Of a DNA stretch of 64,000 nucleotides, positions 30,370 to 64,000 are shown piece after piece. The stretch is from the NCBI RefSeq assembly GCF_001645185.1, contig NZ_LXTQ01000020.1:248001-312000 (forward strand), read 5' to 3'. Each line of letters starts with the position of its first letter. Within the stretch, counting starts at the first letter, position 1. Origin of the DNA: Methylobacillus sp. MM3. Its GTDB lineage: Bacteria > Pseudomonadota > Gammaproteobacteria > Burkholderiales > Methylophilaceae. The position numbers and the translations under genes are program-made. The notes under the pieces were generated by a model. That model saw only the letters and a list, made by a program, of their open reading frames with translations, was not told where the DNA came from and made no database searches.

Positions 30370-31918
<1,549 letters not shown>

Positions 31919-37042: not shown

Positions 37043-37800
37043 TGGGCCTCGCCAAACGCATCATTCCTTGTCTGGATGTGACGGATGGCCGCGTGGTCAA
37101 GGGCATCAATTTCGTTGAGCTGCGCGATGCCGGCGACCCGGTGGAAATCGCCCGGCGCTATGATGAGCAGGGTGCCGACGAGCTAACCTTCCTGGATATC
37201 ACCGCCAGCTCGGATAATCGCGGATTGATCCTGCACATCATCGAAGAGGTCGCTTCGCAGGTATTCATCCCGTTAACCGTCGGCGGTGGCGTGCGCGCCG
37301 TCGAAGATGTGCGTCGCCTGCTGAATGCCGGTGCCGACAAGGTCAGCATGAATACCGCAGCCGTGGTCAATCCGCAACTGGTGGCGGATGCTTCCAGCCG
37401 TTTCGGTGCGCAGTGCATCGTGGTTGCGATCGATGCGAAGCAAGTGGGTGACCACTGGGAAGTGTTCACCCACGGCGGGCGCAAACCTACCGGACTCGAC
37501 GCTGTGGAATGGGCGAAAAAGATGGTCGAACTGGGGGCGGGCGAACTGTTGCTCACCAGCATGGATAGGGACGGTACCAAAAGCGGTTTCGATCTTGCGC
37601 TGACGCGTGCCATCAGCGACGCCGTGGATGTCCCCATCATCGCCTCCGGCGGGGTTGGCAATCTGGATCATCTGGTGGATGGTGTCAAAAAAGGCGGTGC
37701 GGATGCCGTGCTCGCGGCCAGCATTTTCCATTTCGGCGAGTATTCGGTGAGCCAGGCCAAGCATTACATGGCCGATCACGGCATAGAAGTGCGACTCTAA
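37042..37800 (+). CDS. hisF: Imidazole glycerol phosphate synthase, cyclase subunit HisF
   Basis: The TIM barrel has 252 residues and is related to HisA by duplication. Catalytic aspartates are in [15 protein letters not shown] and [11 protein letters not shown]; the phosphate loops are TVGGGVR and ASGGVGN. It condenses PRFAR with ammonia from HisH to give imidazole-glycerol phosphate and AICAR. The structured repeat, copy 2, begins at its stop codon. Confidence 0.97.
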
Positions 37801-38067
37801 GACCCTATCTCAGCAGAAAACGAAAGATGCGTTTGAACACAAAAGGGATGAATGCAAGGCGCGGGGCGCGGCCAATGGCTATTCCATTGGCAAGCTTCGC
37901 AACGCCGCAGGCGCCCTTTTGTGTTCAAACCCTCCGGGCCGGCCATGCATTGCGCGCATGGCGTTGTTGCTCGTCGCTCATTTGGAATATCAAATTTCGC
38001 AACTCTCGCCTAGCCACGCGCGCAATGCATGGCCGGCGCACATTCGTTTCCTGCTGAGATAGGGTCT
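37801..38067. repeat. Structured multi-stem repeat, copy 2 (hisF-hisI)
   Basis: The element fills the whole gap between the hisF stop and the hisI ATG. Its outer arms, 37801-37824 and 38043-38066, pair over 24 bp with one mismatch. Hairpin B has a perfect 17-bp base stem (37831-37847 with 37914-37930). A CCC-TCC-GGG mini-hairpin follows, and hairpin C has a perfect 20-bp stem (37938-37957 with 38018-38037). The core of B (37852-37914) is 86% identical to copy 1, and the tip of C shares short motifs with copy 1. The stems of A, B and C differ in sequence from copy 1 yet pair fully. It is in the same orientation as copy 1. Confidence 0.9.
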
Positions 38068-38460
38068 ATGAGCGAAAGCTGGCTTAACAAGGTTAATTGG
38101 ACGCACGACGGGCTGGTGCCGGTTGTTGTGCAAGAGGCCGGGACCGGGCAAATGCTGATGTTCGCCTGGATGGACCGCGAGGCGCTGAGGCTCACGGAGG
38201 AGACCGGTCATGCGGTCTACTGGTCGCGTTCCCGCAAGAAGCTGTGGCACAAGGGTGAAGAGTCCGGTCATGTGCAGCTCGTCAAGGAAATCCGCCTCGA
38301 TTGCGATGAGGATGTGCTCCTGCTGACGGTGGAACAGATAGGCGGTATCGCCTGTCATACCGGGCGTCATAGCTGTTTTTTCCAGAAGCTGGAGAACCGG
38401 CAATGGATTTCGGATCAGCCGGTGCTGAAAGATCCGGAGGAGATTTACCGCCATGAGTGA
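38068..38460 (+). CDS. hisI: Phosphoribosyl-AMP cyclohydrolase HisI
   Basis: The 130-residue enzyme opens the adenine ring of PR-AMP. Conserved motifs are [36 protein letters not shown] and the metal site DCDEDVLLL with [13 protein letters not shown]. It is separate from hisE, unlike the E. coli fusion. The ATG at 38068 directly follows the repeat element, so its ribosome-binding region lies inside the right arm of that element; no Shine-Dalgarno sequence of standard form is seen. Confidence 0.95.

Positions 38461-46806: not shown

Positions 46807-47997
<1,191 letters not shown>

Positions 47998-63107: not shown

Positions 63108-64000
<893 letters not shown>

Follow-up and report, generated by a model that had tools for sequence, protein, structure and literature searches.

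A Three-Armed Inverted-Repeat Element at the hisF–hisI Junction of Methylobacillus sp. MM3, Very Probably a Type II MITE with IS5-Family-Type Termini

Two Copies of the Element at the his Junctions

The window analyzed here, a 64,000-nucleotide stretch of Methylobacillus sp. MM3 (contig NZ_LXTQ01000020.1, positions 248,001 to 312,000 of the forward strand), carries two copies of a three-armed inverted-repeat element, one between murA and hisG (copy 1) and the other between hisF and hisI (copy 2). The limits of copy 2 were set by comparison with 65 parsed elements from the window genome, its relatives, and named public genomes (Thiobacillus, Sulfuriferula, Rhodocyclaceae, Gallionellaceae, Methylophilaceae, and others). 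The features, in window coordinates, are as follows.

31649–31916, + strand, copy 1, whole, at murA/hisG; 268 nt, terminal type B (GGGCGTG...)
31678–31778, + strand, hairpin H1 of copy 1; R1 match at 31691–31763
31784–31886, + strand, hairpin H2 of copy 1, approximate limits
37798–37800, + strand, hisF stop codon TAA, bordering the insertion on its left
37801–38066, + strand, copy 2, whole three-armed inverted-repeat element at hisF/hisI; 266 nt, terminal type A (GACCCTATCTCAG.../...CTGAGATAGGGTC)
37801–37824, + strand, left outer arm (terminal inverted repeat) of copy 2, immediately 3′ of the hisF TAA
37831–37930, + strand, hairpin H1 of copy 2; its conserved core, 37844–37916, is model R1
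37938–38037, + strand, hairpin H2 of copy 2, akin to H1 in reverse orientation, with opposite-strand R1 pairs
38043–38066, + strand, right outer arm (terminal inverted repeat) of copy 2, holding a weak Shine-Dalgarno (SD) sequence AUAGGG; ends 1 nt 5′ of the hisI ATG
38068–38070, + strand, hisI start codon ATG; its start region ranks last in accessibility among the 13 genes tested

The original prediction had the arms of copy 2 running from the first base after the hisF stop to two bases before the hisI ATG. The left end was placed correctly, but the right end was one base off, T38067 being the sole base between the end of the element and the ATG. The minimum free energy of copy 2 was −171.5 kcal/mol versus −106 ± 5.3 kcal/mol for shuffled sequences (z = −12.3), with 0 of 100 shuffles as stable, and copy 1 gave a z of −13.4. 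Both window copies fold as a three-way junction, in which an outer stem of ~30 pairs formed by the terminal repeats encloses H1 (~100 nt), a short CC-nnn-GG turn, and H2 (~100 nt). The terminal inverted repeats pair at 23 of 24 positions in copy 2 and at 29 of 31 in copy 1, and the outer helix of copy 2, 24 nt with one A·C mismatch, extends to ~30 pairs. Neither a promoter-like site nor a convincing terminator was found inside copy 2. The structure first noted for this copy is confirmed with small corrections.

The same geometry had been claimed for hisG in copy 1, which holds approximately, except that copy 1 starts within the last codons of murA, whose stop codon (31654–31656) comes from the terminal repeat of the element, and that its right end lies 5 nt 5′ of the hisG ATG. 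Over 31649–31656, the C-terminus of murA is altered relative to that in the related genome G006. Elsewhere in the window, a 300-nt repeat with 100% identity occurs at 46807–47106 and 63108–63407, 16.3 kb apart, and is probably part of two putative tuf (EF-Tu) gene copies.

A Dispersed Repeat Family

A nucleotide search of the window genome recovered ~17 copies adjoining unrelated genes, and the covariance model R1, which represents the H1 core, gave 17 matches in the same genome. R1 often matched both strands ~110 nt apart, H1 and H2 being related in opposite orientation. Hairpin losses were seen among the copies, L009 being devoid of H2 and L010 and L017 of H1. Beyond this genome, R1 matches (E ≤ 1e-6) occurred in 78 of 369 class-level genomes and in 30 of 299 phylum-level genomes; the window genome was part of both samples, and strict filters were applied in each search. 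Genomes G084, G143, G181, and G405 contained full three-armed elements. A comparison with Rfam 15 returned no match above the curated gathering threshold, and the sub-threshold matches to microRNA and snoRNA models were taken as chance. No paper on the element family was found in the literature searched, which is no proof that none exists.

Several variant forms were also observed. A further copy in the window genome (L097:276–542) has different outer arms (TAGAGCCTCCTTCAATAGG...), with H1 and H2 both matching the model. At L093, L095, L096, and L100 of the window genome, solo 22-nt hairpins, of which AGAGCCTGTTTCAGCGGGCTCT is an example, comprise nothing but the type-A terminus; these look like collapsed remnants formed by slippage of whole elements, or terminators. 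In genome G126, a second mini-hairpin (GGAATCTCTGAATAAATCAGAGATTCC) separates H1 from H2 in the element at L222:2222–2540 and seems to be a nested or collapsed element.

Insertion at the his Junctions

Related genomes display the corresponding junctions without the element. The hisF and hisI genes overlap by TGATG in G001, a genome of the same genus, as well as in G006, and by ATGA in several further relatives, and murA and hisG overlap by ATGA in G006. Judging from these empty sites, the window genome most likely gained one insertion at each his junction. Considering that the relatives' genes overlap or abut, the stop-to-start fit of copy 2 would result from insertion at a T-N-A/stop-codon site within overlapping genes. 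The flanks at hisF–hisI read CTCTAA on the left and TATGAG on the right of the element, compatible with an insertion into a T-R-A stop codon that overlapped the ATG of hisI and a subsequent small change; neither window copy has a perfect target duplication (TAA...TAT for copy 2 and TGA...TCT for copy 1). Copy 2 would thus have landed on the overlap of the hisF stop and the hisI start, with the duplicated T-R-A triplet preserving the hisF stop.

The insertion would have left hisI its ATG but not the SD found in the hisF tail of several relatives. In G006 and several other relatives, GAGG lies ~10 nt 5′ of the hisI start within this tail. The equivalent position in the window reads GAAG and is displaced ~266 nt from hisI by the insertion. 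Since L056, from a relative without the element, likewise has GAAG at that position, the window GAAG is no evidence of SD decay. A preference for stop codons as targets was considered and rejected: stop codons account for 27% of the element sites and for 15% of TNA sites drawn at random from non-coding DNA (p = 0.037), a weak excess mostly explained by TNA targeting in compact genomes.

Mobility and the IS5-Family Link

Taken as a whole, the feature is very probably a type II MITE of ~266 bp with IS5-family-type terminal inverted repeats, moved in trans by an IS5-family DDE transposase and inserting at T-N-A/TA, with hisI presumably translated by coupling. In the proposed mechanism, an element without an evident gene, whose two internal hairpins H1 and H2 are related in opposite orientation, would have been mobilized in trans by such a transposase at T-N-A (or TA) sites. 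MITEs are below 500 bp and lack a transposase gene; here, 48 of the 59 elements within 255–290 nt measure 266–268 nt, which is too short for a transposase gene, and none is listed. Terminal inverted repeats are present in both window copies, and the ~17 copies in the window genome are dispersed. MITEs are usually AT-rich and variable in length, whereas the mean GC content of this element is 59%; AT-richness is typical of MITEs, not strictly defining.

The flanks and termini provide the link to a transposase family. The flanks of the 65 elements are TNA-rich, and identical 3-nt flanks were found in 14 of them versus 6.7 expected (p = 0.0025), while six of the nine GGGCGTG-type elements, the class of copy 1, are flanked by TA on both sides. 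The type-B 21-nt terminus TAGGGCGTGTTCACACTAATT also ends an 817-bp IS in Cupriavidus necator (left 21/21, right 19/21) and a similar IS in Caballeronia, a match that holds for the type-B consensus, from which copy 1 itself has diverged. Two ORFs of the Cupriavidus IS match Pfam DUF4096 (IS4/5 family transposase) and DDE_Tnp_1; this IS has TA flanks, and omission of the insert plus one TA copy yields an uninterrupted host frame. In addition, the first 16 nt (GGGTCTGTTGACGTTT) of the Azotobacter element terminus are common to an IS in L179. Copies with 97–99.6% identity lie in unrelated flanks in G084, G143, and G181, indicating recent movement.

For type A, the class of copy 2, we infer the identity of the transposase. 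The draft window genome has no transposase with DUF4096 (PF13340), the domain to which this search was confined, and type-A termini form no IS-sized pair in the window genome, nor in G011 among the matches listed; these searches yielded no autonomous partner for copy 2. The idea of an autonomous partner in the same genome was set aside, as none was found for the elements' own termini in G084, nor in G011 and G143 among the matches listed. Host-derived arms, arising from inverted duplication of flanking gene ends, seemed possible from copy 1 alone and were rejected in view of the recurrence of the terminal repeats in other copies.

Conservation of Shape over Sequence

In many bacterial families, the element retains a length of ~266 nt and its three-armed fold, with arm sequences that vary almost freely. 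Outer-arm bases 7–30 share a mean identity of only 39% between elements, yet are 87% complementary within an element, without gaps, and the H1 core shows both-sided changes in 9 of 26 pairs. Such matched arms, together with the near-fixed length, exceed the needs of a plain MITE. If the fold were kept as RNA of one strand, G·U mismatches would exceed A·C on that strand. The counts were 33 G·U versus 42 A·C in the outer stem and 95 versus 93 in all stems (p = 0.94; elements oriented by flanking transcription), giving no sign of selection on one RNA strand. The lack of strand bias suggests that the cause acts on DNA, or that RNA of both strands is involved.

It is quite possible, if somewhat short of an even chance, that pairing of the arms is maintained in the DNA itself, through quasipalindrome template switching that copies one arm onto the other or through a requirement for folded DNA (a cruciform or single-stranded three-way junction) in mobility, which would add to the MITE reading. 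The near-constant length, the contrast between complementarity and identity, and the unbiased mismatches all agree with this explanation, as does one matched double change between L236 and L237, two copies with 97% identity. Against it, the differences within L229/L230 and L234/L235 and most of those within L236/L237 hit one arm only, which indicates that arm copying is not immediate.

Translation of hisI and Possible Regulatory Roles

In the predicted fold, the start region of hisI has a mean unpaired probability of 0.15, the other 12 of the 13 genes ranging over 0.32–0.62 and hisG reaching 0.32. The claim that the region upstream of the hisI ATG is locked in a 24-bp stem is borne out by this lowest accessibility and by the 24-nt outer helix with its single mismatch. 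That hisI shows no SD was overstated, considering that the weak AUAGGG (−4.1 kcal/mol, spacing 3 nt) falls within the range of SD energies of the other his genes (+0.7 to −9.5 kcal/mol). One further feature bears on the downstream gene.

38436–38442, + strand, strong SD GGAGGAG of hisE, within hisI and outside the element; −9.5 kcal/mol

Since this SD lies outside the element, hisE initiation need not depend on copy 2. Translation of both hisI and hisE had been suggested to depend on the structure; for hisI this is physically plausible, but only hisI initiation would be masked. The masking itself is real in the predicted fold, and control of hisI by the element is possible.

Under the MITE reading, the hisI start would now sit in the base of a long stem, and hisI may be kept translated through coupling with hisF. 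On reaching the hisF TAA, a terminating ribosome would occupy approximately 12 nt at the beginning of the left arm, whose pairing partners lie in the hisI start region, and would thereby free the matching bases of the right arm. The long stems may also be cut by RNase III. Any regulatory benefit of the element is putative.

An exaptation of the mobile element would be compatible with the MITE reading: serving RNase III processing or mRNA stability, it would uncouple segments of the operon. Stems of 24–33 bp are long enough for RNase III, and the Correia/NEMIS elements of Neisseria offer a precedent (PMC10969869, PMC2229807), but nothing is conserved at the his locus; this role is conceivable, and we would sooner expect it not to hold.

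A dedicated cis-regulatory RNA of the his operon, in which the stem would block the hisI (and hisG) start and its opening or cleavage would adjust the levels of hisG and hisIE, is improbable: the strong fold of both copies, the poorly accessible hisI start, and the orientation of 22 of 30 elements lying between co-directional genes, in which transcription reaches H1 before H2 (p = 0.016, relatedness ignored), speak for it, but the copies adjoin many unrelated genes, the element is missing at the his loci of relatives, hisE has its own SD, and G·U is not favored over A·C on the transcribed strand (95 versus 93). With pair mismatches free of RNA-strand bias, no evidence speaks for retention of the fold as an mRNA regulator, and such a regulator was rejected as the origin of the element on account of the ~17 copies elsewhere and the empty his sites. 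The earlier regulatory interpretation is partly supported in that its anatomy was right. The element itself did not originate for the his operon; it is a mobile repeat dispersed through the genome.

Comparison with Known Repeats and Significance

The closest comparison is with type II MITEs of the IS5 family, which are likewise shorter than 500 bp, without an evident gene, multi-copy, intergenic, and stably folded into stem-loops, with terminal inverted repeats common to a full IS (as in type B) and TA/TNA flanks. The present element differs from them in being GC-rich and near-invariant at 266–268 nt, in its two internal head-to-head hairpins, in arms that are largely free in sequence with pairing kept, and in the lack of a DUF4096 transposase in the window genome.

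The Correia/NEMIS elements of Neisseria are also mobile inverted-repeat elements found in mRNAs, with a long stem and TA termini, and their cleavage by RNase III has been reported (PMC2229807, PMC10969869); compared by description, they differ in being 107 or 155 bp and folding as an end-to-end stem loop without extra arms. The ERIC/IRU and YPAL repeats of enterobacteria resemble the element as small mobile palindromic elements between genes, and ERIC has been reported to affect transcript levels (PMC10969869); however, by description, these repeats (127 bp for ERIC/IRU and 168 bp for YPAL) form a stem loop without extra arms. CIR elements of Caulobacter likewise have two long hairpin arms with a linker between them (PMC2229807), but have no closing outer stem of terminal repeats and carry a GANTC motif.

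A broader and rather doubtful proposal is that these elements form a widespread proteobacterial class of mobile elements inherited by shape and not by sequence, namely a ~266-bp three-armed DNA whose arm sequences, including the terminal repeats, turn over while length and pairing are held at the DNA level by arm copying or by a mobility machinery that recognizes the folded junction. If this were true, the element could change between different IS5-type transposases.

What seemed a riboregulator of the his operon has become a general repeat family with no description in the literature searched; the covariance model finds it in about one-fifth of the sampled genomes of the class. With this family, one can cleanly test how structure is kept without sequence in a palindromic mobile element and, at hisF–hisI, how translation continues after an insertion has displaced a gene's ribosome-binding site.
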